Source: a virus. From it: a stretch of 21,250 bases of DNA. Positions 2,814 through 9,100 of the stretch are shown one piece after another. The notes beneath the pieces are model-generated. The model was not told the origin of the DNA. It did no database searches and saw only the letters and a list, made by a program, of their open reading frames with translations. The translations under genes were made by a program, and so were the position numbers. The DNA lies in IMG/VR virus record IMGVR_UViG_3300021389_000187, positions 1-21,250 of that record, one strand, 5' to 3'. How positions within the stretch are numbered: the stretch's first letter is position 1; every line of letters starts with the position of its first letter.

Positions 2814-3596
2814 ATGGATTACTCAAAAGGACTAAAAACACTACGGTCAGCTGCTGATAACTTCGACTATGATCGTTACGTAAGAGATGTAGAAGCGGGT
2901 AAGTTTGCTAAGAAGACTAAGTCCTCTAAGGAAATAGGACAAGAGGGTCTCATGCGCCGTAAAGCAGAGGCTTTGGATGTTCCTGATATGGATGCAGATG
3001 AACCTGCAATGGGTCCATTAGCCGAACGCTACCTACAGCTTCGTAATCGTCGTAAAAGCGGTGGGTTCTCATCAGGTGTCGAAGAGGCTCTCCAAGAGGC
3101 TATGGAATACAAAGAAGAGCAGAAGGAAGGCAAAGGGCTTATGCGCCCTAAGGCTCGCCCCCCGATGAGGCCAGAGGCTCGCCCTTGGCAAGACTCTGAT
3201 AGTTTCATCAACAAGTTGATTGAGTCTGAGTCTTCAGGTCGTACAGACGCTGAGTTTACTACTAAAGGTGGTCGTCGGTTCGTAGGTCAAGGTCAATTCG
3301 GGGAAGCTCGTCTGGCTGACTTTAAGAAGTACACCAACACAGAGTTTACTCAGGAAGACTTCAAGAAAGACCCTAACCTACAGGACGAGGTCATGAAGTG
3401 GCACGTACGGGATTTGGATAAGCAAATTAGCAAGACAAAGGGTGCTGAAAACTTCGATAGAGACGGCTTACGTGCTGTAGCTCACCTCGGTGGTATCAGC
3501 GGTATGAAACAGTTTGTAGCCTCTGGCGGCAAGTACAACCCGTCTGACGAGCTGGGGACATCCCTCACAAAGTACTATAATAAGTTCAAAGGATAA
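2814..3596 (+). CDS. Virion-associated lysozyme/transglycosylase-like protein
   Basis: 260 residues, 12 bases after the upstream gene, with AGGAG at 2802-2806. The N-terminal half (1-125) is charged and low-complexity, with Arg-Pro-rich repeats (MRPKARP, MRPEARP). The C-terminal half resembles soluble lytic transglycosylase or goose-lysozyme folds: FINKLIESESSGR at 131-143 carries the ExSG-type catalytic glutamate (E139, or E137), and GQGQFGEARL at 158-167 matches the glycine/glutamine segment that follows it. Such domains in short-tailed phages cut peptidoglycan locally as DNA is injected; in T7 this domain is the N-terminus of gp16. Here it is a separate protein beside the large ejection-type protein. 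Remote similarity; the active-site residue is inferred from the pattern. Confidence 0.65.
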   Translation: MDYSKGLKTLRSAADNFDYDRYVRDVEAGKFAKKTKSSKEIGQEGLMRRKAEALDVPDMDADEPAMGPLAERYLQLRNRRKSGGFSSGVEEALQEAMEYKEEQKEGKGLMRPKARPPMRPEARPWQDSDSFINKLIESESSGRTDAEFTTKGGRRFVGQGQFGEARLADFKKYTNTEFTQEDFKKDPNLQDEVMKWHVRDLDKQISKTKGAENFDRDGLRAVAHLGGISGMKQFVASGGKYNPSDELGTSLTKYYNKFKG

Positions 3597-3601
3597 TAAC
3601 A

Positions 3602-4171
3602 ATGTCAGCTATGAATGATATACTACTAGATGGGTCTATTCCCGGCGAGGAGATGACTGTTGAGTTTGGATCACGTCCTTGGCATCGCCCCCCTGAGATT
3701 GAAGACCCAGTGGAAGCACTGGACTACCACCTTGACCGTATGGAAGAACCCAAGGTTCGTAAGGCTATCTTAGACGCTATTGAACTTGGTATCCCTGTCC
3801 GTGACCTTAACCTTGGCATGTTACGTACGGCAGTCTCCACCGCTGTACACGACTTGGACACTATGTTCATGATCGCCTCCATTACTCATGAAGCGTTAGA
3901 GCTTATGGCTGAAGAAGAAGGTCTTGAGTTCAAGACTGGCTTCGAGGAGACAGAGGAAGATCGTGAGGCAGAGTACAGTCTCAACTCCATGAAAGCCTCT
4001 AAACTGCTGGAGAAGCACAAGAGCACCGGAGACTTGGAAGGAATGACCCTTGAGAGCCCCTCAGAGCCTGTTACAGAGCCATCTATGCCTGTAGACGATG
4101 CGGAACCCATGATTGAAGATAACACGCCTGTAGAAGCTCCTAAGGGCTTGATGGCACGGAAGGATATGTAA
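3602..4171 (+). CDS. Conserved marine-phage virion protein, unknown function
   Basis: 189 residues; start 5 bases after the previous stop, with a weak AAGGAT upstream. The opening (SIPGEEMTVEFGSRPWHRPP, then DPVEALDYHLDRM) is a pattern I recall from uncharacterised structural-region proteins of marine phages. Residues about 30-105 look like a compact helical domain; about 110-189 are acidic and proline-rich, probably disordered. The C-terminus ends in GLMARK, echoing GLMRRK and GLMRPK in the lysozyme-like protein just upstream. No catalytic motif, signal peptide or membrane segment was seen. The location between lysozyme-like and ejection-type proteins suggests a virion or assembly role, by context only. 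Confidence 0.65.
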   Translation: MSAMNDILLDGSIPGEEMTVEFGSRPWHRPPEIEDPVEALDYHLDRMEEPKVRKAILDAIELGIPVRDLNLGMLRTAVSTAVHDLDTMFMIASITHEALELMAEEEGLEFKTGFEETEEDREAEYSLNSMKASKLLEKHKSTGDLEGMTLESPSEPVTEPSMPVDDAEPMIEDNTPVEAPKGLMARKDM

Positions 4172-4172
4172 T

Positions 4173-6104
4173 ATGGCATTCTTTGCAGGACTAGCTGAAG
4201 GCTTTATAACTGGACGTAAGATGAAGGCGGAGAAGGAAGAGACTGACCGCCTTGCTGATTACCGTAAGACTGAACAAGAGTACCGTGCTTCCCGTGACAC
4301 AGTATCTGACACTCGTTACATCGAAGAGAAAGAGGCAGCGCGTAAACGTCAAGCAATCGAAGATGCACGTTACGAGACTGAGCAGAAACGGAGTGACATC
4401 CGGTGGGGGGCTGAGTTCGGTCTTCGTGAAGGCGAAGCTGAACGGGCTGGAAGCCAATGGGATGCTACCTTCAACTACCGTCAAGAACGTGATAAAGTAG
4501 GCGATGAACAGTGGTTAGCTCAACAAGATATTATTGCTGCAGAAGCTGTAGAGTCTCGTCGTCGCTTTGAAAAGCAGTTCGACTTTACTTCTCAAGAAGC
4601 GGATAAAGCTGCCGATAGGTGGAAGGCTCGCTTTGGTTTTGATGAACAGCAAGCTTTGAATGCTGAACAGTGGCAGCAGGCTATGCAAGAGTACCGTGAG
4701 ACACGGGACACTGTATCCGACCAACAATGGACCGATACTTTTGCGTATACCAAAGACCAAGCAACTGCTGCAGAGAACCGTTGGAGAGAAGAATTTGGTT
4801 TCCGTGAAGGTCAAGCCCTTACAGCCGCACAGCAATGGGAAGCTGAGAAGGCGTGGCGTGAGCAACGTGCCGAGGTTGCAGATCAGCAGTTTGACACGCA
4901 GTTGTCTGACAAGCGTATGACTACCTTGATTAACGCTGGGCTGACACCCAGTGGTCAACCTGGTACTACGGGAGGAAAGGGTAACACCCCTGCTGCTATC
5001 GCAGAGTCTGTTATTGCTCTTAAGTCTCGTGTAGGCTCTGCTGAGTTAGATGCTGATGATAAGAAGTACTTTGATATTATCCTCCAAGACCCTGCCGCTG
5101 CCCACAAGATCTACAGCTTTATGCAAAAGCAGGCAAGTGAAGGTAATGTAATTGGTATCGAAGACATTCCTTCTCTTATCCAGATCGCCGGTATCTCAGA
5201 GGGTAAGAACGAGGAGGCTATGGCCTTTCTCAAGTCTAACGGTGTTGATGTGAAGAACCAAGACGAGTTCTTTAGGGCACTACAAACTTTGAGGGACTAC
5301 AGCCCCACCCGTGTAATCACAGACATCGGTTCCGATGCATACCGTAACCCTAACGACATCAAGGTCATTAAGGACCAACGTGATCTATTTGTGGATACGT
5401 CTATTCCTGCTGCTCAAGCTATGTTGGCATCCCTCCCTGAGGGGGATCCGGCACGGGGTGAGTTGTCTCGGGCTCTTGATAACGTAGGAAGTGGTGATGC
5501 TGTGATTAAGTCACGTGCTATCTCTACTCTTATGAGGTACATCGTTACTCCTGAGCATATCAAGCGTCTGGAGTCACGTGGCGGAGCCTTTAAGAACCTG
5601 TCTCAGAACGAGTTCCTAATGCCGTACATGCCTGAACCTGAGGCTGAAATTAAGGCAACTGGTGGAACACCTAAGGCAACTGGTGGAGAGGTACCGGCTT
5701 CCGGTCTAACCCCTTCCCCTGAGCCTATTGCAGCTTCTGAACCGACTGTACTCGATGACGTACCTTCGTTCGACTCCGTTGGTGATTACAACGCATGGAG
5801 AGAAGCCGGTAACTCTGGCCCAGTCATCGTAATGGGGCAACGGGGTAACGCCGCTCCTATAGCCCGTGAAGAACCTGTTCAGCCTGAGGCTCCAGCTGTA
5901 GATGAATCTATTGCTGCACCCGAAGAGGTATCTTCTGATGTAGAAGGGTTAGCTAACTTAGCTAAGGAGCAAGGTATACGTTCTCAATCGGAACTCAACA
6001 AGTTTATATTCAAGAATGTAGAACCTGTTCCCGGTGATCGTAAAGCCACTAACCAACTACAACGCCAGATGTTCGAAGAGTTATCAGCTATACTAGGATT
6101 ATAA
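4173..6104 (+). CDS. Virion protein with 18-residue aromatic helical repeats (putative internal protein)
   Basis: 643 residues; ATG one base after the previous stop. Residues 37-240 are a charged, Gln/Glu/Arg-rich, proline-free stretch with Trp/Phe/Tyr at near-exact 18-residue steps: W78, W96, W114, F132, W150, W167, W186, W204, W222, F240, most followed four residues later by Phe/Tyr/Trp. Eighteen residues is five full alpha-helical turns, so the aromatics should line one face of a long straight helix. Residues about 270-480 look globular and helical; about 485-590 are a Pro/Ala/Glu-rich linker with a short direct repeat (KATGG twice); about 590-643 form a final helical domain. No enzyme motif was recognised. 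Its place before the 1192-residue protein suggests an internal core or ejection component. Structural role likely, exact role unknown. Confidence 0.7.
   Translation: MAFFAGLAEGFITGRKMKAEKEETDRLADYRKTEQEYRASRDTVSDTRYIEEKEAARKRQAIEDARYETEQKRSDIRWGAEFGLREGEAERAGSQWDATFNYRQERDKVGDEQWLAQQDIIAAEAVESRRRFEKQFDFTSQEADKAADRWKARFGFDEQQALNAEQWQQAMQEYRETRDTVSDQQWTDTFAYTKDQATAAENRWREEFGFREGQALTAAQQWEAEKAWREQRAEVADQQFDTQLSDKRMTTLINAGLTPSGQPGTTGGKGNTPAAIAESVIALKSRVGSAELDADDKKYFDIILQDPAAAHKIYSFMQKQASEGNVIGIEDIPSLIQIAGISEGKNEEAMAFLKSNGVDVKNQDEFFRALQTLRDYSPTRVITDIGSDAYRNPNDIKVIKDQRDLFVDTSIPAAQAMLASLPEGDPARGELSRALDNVGSGDAVIKSRAISTLMRYIVTPEHIKRLESRGGAFKNLSQNEFLMPYMPEPEAEIKATGGTPKATGGEVPASGLTPSPEPIAASEPTVLDDVPSFDSVGDYNAWREAGNSGPVIVMGQRGNAAPIAREEPVQPEAPAVDESIAAPEEVSSDVEGLANLAKEQGIRSQSELNKFIFKNVEPVPGDRKATNQLQRQMFEELSAILGL
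5651..5687. repeat. 16-bp direct repeat, 21-bp period, in coding linker
   Basis: TAAGGCAACTGGTGGA occurs at 5651-5666 and 5672-5687. The 21-base period keeps frame and encodes a duplicated KATGG segment in a proline-rich linker. Confidence 0.85.
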
Positions 6105-6106
6105 TA

Positions 6107-9100
6107 ATGAATAATAACCTAACAGCATATGACGGTTTCAGCCTTACTCTAGACGAGGAGGAAGAGGAGACCATCTTTGAGGGCTTCACTCCGATTGAAA
6201 ACCAACAGGTAGAGGAGGAACCTTTCGTAGAGGAGGAACCTCTTTTAGAGGGGTTCACACCGGACACCACGGAGGAGACTGCCTCGGAGGAGGCACCTAC
6301 TAGCTTCGTACCCTCTGGTTTCACAGCTGGTGAGTACTCTGAGAACACGATGGTTGAGGACGGACTGTACCAACCTATTGAAGAGTACATGAACCTGCGG
6401 TTCGGCATTCAGGCCACCGAAGGCAAGACTCGTGAAGAAGTAGTAAACAAGTACCTTAACAGCAGACGCGGCAATGCTATGGGTAACTCCATTGACGCTT
6501 TGTCTGAGGCTGACTTCCTTTACAGTATCAAGGATGACCAAGAGAAGTTAGCTAAAGTTGGACGTGCCTACGGTGTCTACGAGAACATGGCTGGTCTCTT
6601 CTCCAAGCATACGACTGCTGGGGAGAAGGCTGAGGTTGTCATGGACTCCGTTTGGTCTCTTATCGTGGACCCTATCAACTTGGCCGGGGGTATCATCGGC
6701 CGAGCTATAGGTGGCACTGCTACTAGAGTAGGGATTAAAACACTTAACAAGATGGCTACCCAAGCTGCCATGAAGGAGTTGACTAAGCAAGCTGGTAAAG
6801 CTACTGCTAAGAAGGCTGCTGCACGTGTGTACAAGGCCGCTGCAACTACAGCACAGGCTAAGGCTGCTACAGAGATGACGGAGTACGCCACAAAGCTGGC
6901 TGCTACTAAGGGTTTCCAACGTGTGATGACCAAGGCTGGCCTCAAGGAGGTTGCTGCGGCTACTGTTGTCGATTCTATCGCAGGGACTGGTACTGAGTGG
7001 CTCTACCAACGTAGTCTAGCTCAGACAGGTGTTCAAGACGAGGTTAACCCTTACGCTGTAGGTTTAGCTGCGTTGTCGGGTATGGTTATGGGCGGTATCC
7101 AAGCTGGCCGTGTAGCCTACCGTGGTTCCACAGGTCAAGCTCTGGTCTCTGAGGTCGTACAACAAGGTGACCCTAAGAAAGTGGCACGTGAGATGCAGGA
7201 GTCTATCGCTGCGTATATGCAAGAGGGAACACTGGATAAGACATCGTCGTGGGCCTCTAAACTTGCAGACGGCGAGGAGCTTGCCGCTAAAGACACTGAC
7301 TTCTTTGTAGAACTCCTACTTGGCCGGTCTGTAGAAGTAGAGGGTGGTGAGAGTAAACAGTTGTTCAAAGGTCTCGGCCAAACCATGCAGGAGAATGGTT
7401 TCTTCTACGTTAAGCGTGACAAGGATGATAAGATATCGAACTTCGTTGCTGACTTCATCAAGGAGATGGACGATGTAGACGCACAGGGTATCATCCGTGC
7501 GTACAGTGAGAACTCTGGCAACCCTATCACAGACCTAGAGGACATAACAGCTGAGAAGCTGGGTGATCTGTTCGCTAGTAAGATGAACCAAGGTGCTCGT
7601 ACCATGAACGCTGCAAAGCAGATGGCTGATACACTTGACATCAACATCGAGGACTTGGACATCGAGAAGTACCTAGAGGTCTCTATGGGTCTTAAGATGC
7701 TGGAAACACCACCTACTAAGTTTGATGAGTGGGGAGCTGGCGCTGGTGCCGGTATCCGTAAAGCCCAGAATAACATGATTAGATCTCTGGTGTCTCACCC
7801 ATCTACATCTATGTTGAACGTAGTTGGTTATACTGCTGCGTCCGCCATCGGTTCCGCGAGTGATATGACACAGGCTTTGCTGTACGCAAGCCGTGGAGCC
7901 CTACACAACATGGTTGGCCAGTTCGACAAGGGTGCGGATTTCAACCGTGTTGCTAAGTCATTGGCTAAGGCTAACGCCAATCGTGTACGGCTGTTGGTCG
8001 ACCCAGATATGACAGCAGAGGCCTTTAAGTCAGCACTGCTCCGTAATACAGGGGCTATGGAGAAACTAAGCCGTGTTCAATCAGGTGGTGTTGAAATCTC
8101 CTCTGGTATCGAAGAGATGGCCAAGATGGGTGGAACCCAACGTGCTTTCTGGCAGAAGGCCGAAAGTGGTATCGACGTAGTGCAGGCTGCAACCTTTGTG
8201 GACGCACAGGACATCTGGACAAAGTCCCAGGAGTACGTATTCCAAATGGACAAGAACTTACGTACAACCTTCAATAAGAGTTGGGATGAGTTCTACACCA
8301 GTGCGGATGCCCAGAAGATCATGGCGACAAAGCAATACAAACAACTGGAGGCCACTGCTGTTGATAAGACGCTGGAGATGACATTCTCTAAGTCGTACAA
8401 GGGTAAGAAGGCTCTAGGTGAGATTGCTGGGTTTATCGAGGATGCTCGTAACATACCGGGTCTCGGGGCTCTTGTGCCCTTCGGTAAGTTCTTTAACAAC
8501 ACCATTGACTTTACTGTTAAGAATAGCCCAGTGGGTCTTGCAGCTAAGGTAACAGGACTAGGGTACAAGGACGTACCTATCAGTGAGATGGTAGCTCGTA
8601 CAACGGTAGCAGCTGGTCTGGTATACTCTATGGCCAGCGGTGAGGACGAAGCTAGACGTCAGGGCCTAGGCCTCTACGAGAAGGTGAACGAGCGCACAGG
8701 TGAAGTTAGTAGTCTTCAGTACGACTACCCGTTGTCCCTCTTTAAGGCAGCTGGTCGTATCTTCTCCTACAAACAAGCCGGGGAGAACGTGCCTGATGAG
8801 ATTGCGGAACAGGTTATCCGTGACTTCTTTGGTGGATCTTTGACACGTAACATCTCTAAGTCAGGTGATGTTATGGTTGACGCTGTAGCTTCCTTGATTA
8901 AAATGGAACTAGAAGATTCCGCTGAGAAGGCTAAACAAGCCATAGGCTCTATTGGTTCCCAGTATGTGTCTGCCTCTACTCGTTTTGTAGAACCTATCAA
9001 CGAGCTGGTAGGGTTGGTGATGTCCGACTCCATTGAGCGTGGACCTGAGTTGAACACTGGGACAGGGTTTGCCAAACAGGCAAAGGACTCCATGCGGTAC

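Follow-up and report, generated by a model that had tools for sequence, protein, structure and literature searches.

The aromatic ladder

The locus raises the question of what a ladder of aromatic residues with a step of 18 does in a phage protein encoded directly before a giant gene. The window (the whole 21,250-nucleotide IMG/VR fragment IMGVR_UViG_3300021389_000187) carries this ladder in a 643-residue protein (Table 1). The first-pass annotation had placed it at 4281-4895, corresponding to residues 37-241, and the aromatic residues that it listed (Y49, Y67 and the ten ladder positions of Table 1) are all as stated. In the 643-residue ORF, 16 pairs of Trp, Phe or Tyr were observed at lag 18 and 3.2 were expected (0 of 5000 shuffles reached 16), and the aromatic autocorrelation has its maxima at lags 18, 36 and 54. 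A BLOSUM62 self-comparison of residues 25-254 gave z = 8.9 at lag 18 and z = 8.6 at lag 54. This significant 18-residue self-alignment was exceeded in 0 of 2000 shuffles (99% point of the null, 3.8). Residues 255-643 were without periodicity in the same comparison.

The ladder had been called exact. This holds for the dominant lag of 18, but the spacing W150-W167-W186 is 17 and then 19, and the step from Y67 to W78 is 11. A second aromatic residue four positions on had been noted in most units and is present in six of ten (82, 100, 136, 154, 190, 208); six of ten also have an aromatic residue at +6 (102, 138, 156, 192, 210, 228). On an ideal helix, with a rotation of 100 degrees per residue, the +6 aromatics are offset by 120 degrees from the W/F column, which contradicts the proposal that all aromatics face one side of the helix. 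The units share a mean pairwise identity of 22% (9% for shuffled units) and, at the nucleotide level, of 38%. Thus, the array is old and does not result from recent DNA duplication.

We consider a helical ladder region plausible: the linker contains 0 Pro, 8 Gly and 0 Cys in its 230 residues, and residues 2-254 form a near-continuous helix in an AlphaFold2 model, in which the ladder has a pLDDT of about 40 from a 16-sequence alignment. A fully helical stretch from residue 78 to 240 would be about 24 nm long at 0.15 nm per residue. At 18/5 = 3.6 residues per turn the repeat would be untwisted, and the data support the idea that this late gene encodes a straight helical repeat. Conserved positions on an ideal helix, with faces chosen by hand, form two clusters separated by about 137 degrees, W1/F5/D12/D16 and Y7/R11/V14/Q18. 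By this geometric argument, the two faces would let roughly 6-12 helices pack side by side in a ring. Fourier analysis of hydrophobicity was uninformative.

Table 1 Features of the ladder gene and of neighbouring genes in the window.
Feature	Position	Strand	Description
Other repeat protein, 569 aa	1092..2801	+	Phe at 381, 392, 403, 414, 425, 436
Endolysin-like protein, 260 aa	2814..3596	+	phrog_26675, E 4e-13
Acidic 189-aa protein	3602..4171	+	C-terminal KGLMAR; gp14-like by size and place only
Ladder gene	4173..6104	+	643 aa, pI 4.7, without predicted membrane segment
N-terminus, residues 1-24	4173..4244	+	M-[SA]-F-[WF]-x-G-x-A-x-G, common to all orthologues (alignments)
Helical length-variable linker with repeat, residues 25-254	4245..4934	+	46-271 residues in orthologues
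Y49 and Y67	4317..4373	+	Extra upstream 18-step; then 11-residue step to W78
18-residue ladder proper, residues 78-240	4404..4892	+	W78 W96 W114 F132 W150 W167 W186 W204 W222 F240; W167 one residue early
Conserved helical domain, residues ~258-470	4944..5582	+	Common to all orthologues whatever the linker length
Giant gene, 1192 aa	6107..9685	+	Mostly helical; gp16-like by size and place only

Source phage and orthologues

The DNA polymerase of the window is 64% identical to those of CRP-13 and CRP-9, two Roseobacter phages with short tails and a morphogenesis module of the HMO-2011 type (PMC8528129). The source of the ladder gene is an HMO-2011-type short-tailed marine phage. Direct searches of INPHARED and IMG/VR returned no match to the ladder protein; relatives were reached via the conserved 1192-residue neighbour, and further ones via the conserved N-terminal pattern. 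The orthologues come from HMO-2011-type marine podoviruses; all of them retain residues 1-24 and the 258-470 domain, and the linker in between is poorly conserved and variable in length. Among these relatives the identity of the ladder protein is only about 19-26%, and that of the downstream giant 41-45%.

Three orthologues (L009, L014 and L004) have linkers of only 46-77 residues; therefore a long ladder is dispensable for the core function. Where orthologue linkers are repetitive at all, the periodicity is 25 or 7 residues and not 18, so that the exact 18-residue ladder is a trait of the window phage and not of its orthologue family. Three orthologues (L028, L026 and L024) still match the 18-residue profile described below. 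The aromatic spacing is not conserved among orthologues, but it is kept in unrelated proteins. In L003 (587-2938), the linker contains about 195 residues that are missing from its close relative L004 (5556-7322). This insertion resembles two copies of an 86-residue block (pairs Y102/Y188, F127/F213, F143/F229, F150/F236 and F168/F254).

The same unit in other phages

The unit has the consensus W-x3-F-x-Y-x3-R-D-x-[VI]-[AS]-D-x-Q. When IMG/VR and GTDB genome contigs were scanned for two successive units, 28 other distinct ORFs with lag-18 z > 5.4 were found in uncultured phages and prophages, a few of them near-duplicates. Their N-termini are of several types, including GGYG[SN]S, GYEDID and GRGM.RSS, and the named genome records include Clostridia, Lachnospiraceae, Ruminococcus, Oscillospiraceae and one Bacteroidales MAG. 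A profile built from 59 two-unit segments of 25 other ladder proteins, with the window excluded, matches the window protein with E 1.2e-7 (0.25 for the best of 5000 shuffles), with best matches at residues 96-117 and 167-202. When the aromatics were fixed and all other residues shuffled, 0 of 2000 sequences reached the full-sequence score and 1 of 2000 reached the best single-domain score; thus, R11, D12, V14, D16 and Q18 also contribute to the match. When the profile of the orthologue family was compared with that of the GGYG-type family, the probability was 73%.

A family of unknown function, phrog_21397, matches residues 162-234 of the window protein (E 1e-10) and also L216 and L240, two unrelated ladder proteins; the match is confined to the repeat, and other domains differ. 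In a scan for W-x3-F three times in succession, L183, L216 and L240 were, among the matches listed, the only ones kept after reading of the frames; L240, whose local z is as low as 2.3, was retained for its sequence and its phrog_21397 match. A scan with a six-Trp ladder pattern yielded no polar ladder, mostly out-of-frame low-complexity repeats and the hydrophobic L052. The latter (5849-6898, minus strand) is a different, hydrophobic 18-residue Trp ladder with a tape-measure-like look. BLAST with the ladder alone gave two matches, H24 and H25 (E 3 and 10), that look unrelated on reading.

The repeat had been thought to belong to no named family. Pfam indeed has none for the ladder protein, and a text search of the literature found no description of an 18-residue repeat in phages, but tape measure proteins of siphophages have aromatic periodicities of 11 and 18, which are the closest repeat in print, and the unit is widespread in uncultured phages. 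In the phage collection the repeat was matched by only one unannotated gut record, and therefore the unit may have stayed without a name.

Gene neighbourhood

The window has a small, a medium and a giant protein of 189, 643 and 1192 residues at the end of the late module (about 165-189, 468-783 and 1204-1291 in relatives), and the giant gene starts 3 bases past the last base of the ladder stop codon. Order and size match those of T7 gp14, gp15 and gp16, for which Table 1 of PMC8954989 lists 196, 747 and 1318 residues. Tunnel proteins of the T7 gp15 and P22 gp20 type likewise lie between a small and a giant protein, are helix-rich and lack a membrane segment; PMC8954989 gives them 449-982 residues, and the descriptions consulted mention no aromatic repeat ladder.

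Elsewhere, ladder genes also lie late in the structural module, e.g., in L379 with a P22-like portal. A giant ORF directly follows the ladder gene in 13 of 14 cases, compared with 11 of 67 for other same-strand ORFs (Fisher p = 8e-8, a guide only, as kin loci were maybe counted repeatedly and many giants extend past the end of their contig), and in 15 of 17 by a looser count. The giant behind the ladder gene of L373 has an LPD38 domain, and that behind the ladder-poor family member L270 has MuF_C; domains of these types are found in polyvalent proteins, which are thought to enter the host together with the phage DNA (PMC5512222). No kinship was found between the 1192-residue protein of the window and the L373 giant, and the former matched no family in Pfam or PHROGs and gave a poor model (mean pLDDT 40). 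Its relatives have one marginal hydrophobic segment near residues 340-367 with a hydropathy of 1.5-1.8; in the window copy the maximum is only 1.32.

A candidate DNA-ejection protein

The ladder gene product is probably a late, virion-associated protein, and its placement before a giant late gene suggests that it is part of the phage DNA delivery machinery. We see about an even chance that the ladder region serves as a spacer, helical and variable in length, within a podovirus ejection (pilot) protein that occupies the position of T7 gp15 and forms a bundle or tube. One orthologue weakly matches a PHROG annotated as 'pilot protein for DNA ejection' (E 0.035). PDB profiles and Foldseek, the latter with a low-confidence model, gave no sequence or fold match to known ejection proteins; this and the short linkers of L009, L014 and L004 speak against the ejection reading. 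A PDB profile match to a glycosyltransferase (E 0.002) is doubtful and non-phage and was treated as chance.

From these data we infer presence of the ladder protein in the virion, ejection, and assembly into an oligomeric tube that would serve as a DNA conduit. Before infection, the protein would lie inside or close to the head or portal together with the giant 1192-residue protein, and it would be released on infection. The released proteins might then assemble into a bundle or tube, with the helices side by side via their two conserved faces, and this tube would extend the short tail across the envelope. The helix would lengthen the path for DNA, and the linker, long, polar and free of Pro, could change its length freely between conserved ends. 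The H pilot protein of phiX174, which forms a helical barrel through which DNA passes and has a non-heptad periodicity, resembles what is proposed here; it is heptad/hendecad based and comes from a phage unrelated to the ladder phage.

Instead, the linker might be a tape-measure-like ruler: a chaperone would bind its aromatics during assembly, and its length would determine that of a tail or core structure. Siphophage tape measure proteins are similar in having a long helix, tandem W/F at fixed spacing and a variable repeat number. Their W/F repeats of 11 or 11-11-18 (PMC3271669; PMC5099701) and the strong variation of linker length between relatives would fit, but the phage is of a short-tailed type (PMC8528129), the gene neighbourhood differs, and the chaperone matched at 375-944 is one for tail-fibre assembly. 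In the one tape measure protein compared, that of TP901-1, the spacings differ as well (aromatic peaks at 11, 29 and 40); its signal at lag 18 is weak (9 pairs, 4.9 expected, 51 of 1000 shuffles), and the ladder profile does not match it. No tail tube gene was recognised by Pfam or PHROGs in the six ORFs scanned of the window, which is itself a fragment. We regard a ruler function as distinctly improbable. The same small likelihood is given to a spacer under low constraint, in which the helix merely joins the conserved ends and the ladder, functionless in itself, arose by slippage or duplication. Conserved ends around a poorly conserved, length-variable linker and the residues that L003 has gained or L004 lost would be expected of such a spacer. 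However, the units have diverged and yet kept the aromatic register, and their non-aromatic positions match unrelated ladders, both of which argue for selection on the unit.

A structural protein that is not ejected, i.e., a head-interior, scaffold-like or tail-associated fibre with coiled-coil packing, is unlikely, if somewhat less so. It would be consistent with the late-gene position, the polar helical sequence and the weak match of one orthologue to a head-tail adaptor family (E 0.012), but the constant placement before giants, some with injected-protein domains, is better explained by ejection. We regard the ladder as one of the aromatic helix repeats of phages, here in an ejection-protein-like gene. 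It is tempting to extend the ejection reading to all carriers of the unit, with the widespread two-faced repeat building straight DNA-ejection tubes of adjustable length in uncultured short-tailed phages, both those of Gram-negative and those of Gram-positive hosts, and with the tube protein encoded beside a giant partner or cargo; this generalisation is doubtful. If the repeat does mark ejection proteins, it would be a sequence signature for a protein class that usually evolves beyond recognition, and the ejection apparatus could be annotated in the numerous uncultured short-tailed phages whose ladder protein and giant neighbour both lack a named family. The repeat would further represent a natural untwisted 18/5 helical assembly, tunable in length by gain or loss of units.

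The 11-residue repeat and motifs of neighbouring proteins

The first-pass annotation had also proposed that an 11-residue repeat in the 569-residue protein belongs to an adjacent gene and packs against the ladder. The repeat is real (z = 5.6 at lag 11 and 6.2 at lag 33), but two genes lie between. Pairing of the two repeats found no support: the GGYG-type ladder proteins contain no match to the profile of the 11-residue family, and the 11-residue protein is absent among the matches to the ladder profile. A resemblance in a GSS motif between the 11-residue protein of the window and GGYG-type ladder proteins was unsupported by hhalign. In the 569-residue protein, the Phe ladder at 381-436 adjoins a strongly conserved block, RGL-x-[AS]-SSMAG-x-A, common to relatives.

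The motif GLM-[AS]-[RK] forms the extreme C-terminus of the 165-189-residue protein in every relative examined (loci: window, L002, L004, L013, L014, L018, L019, L020, L021, L024 and L035), and motifs of the GLMRP-[KR] type recur in the endolysin-like protein (2814-3596 in the window). Possibly, the GLM motifs act as a binding or cleavage signal.
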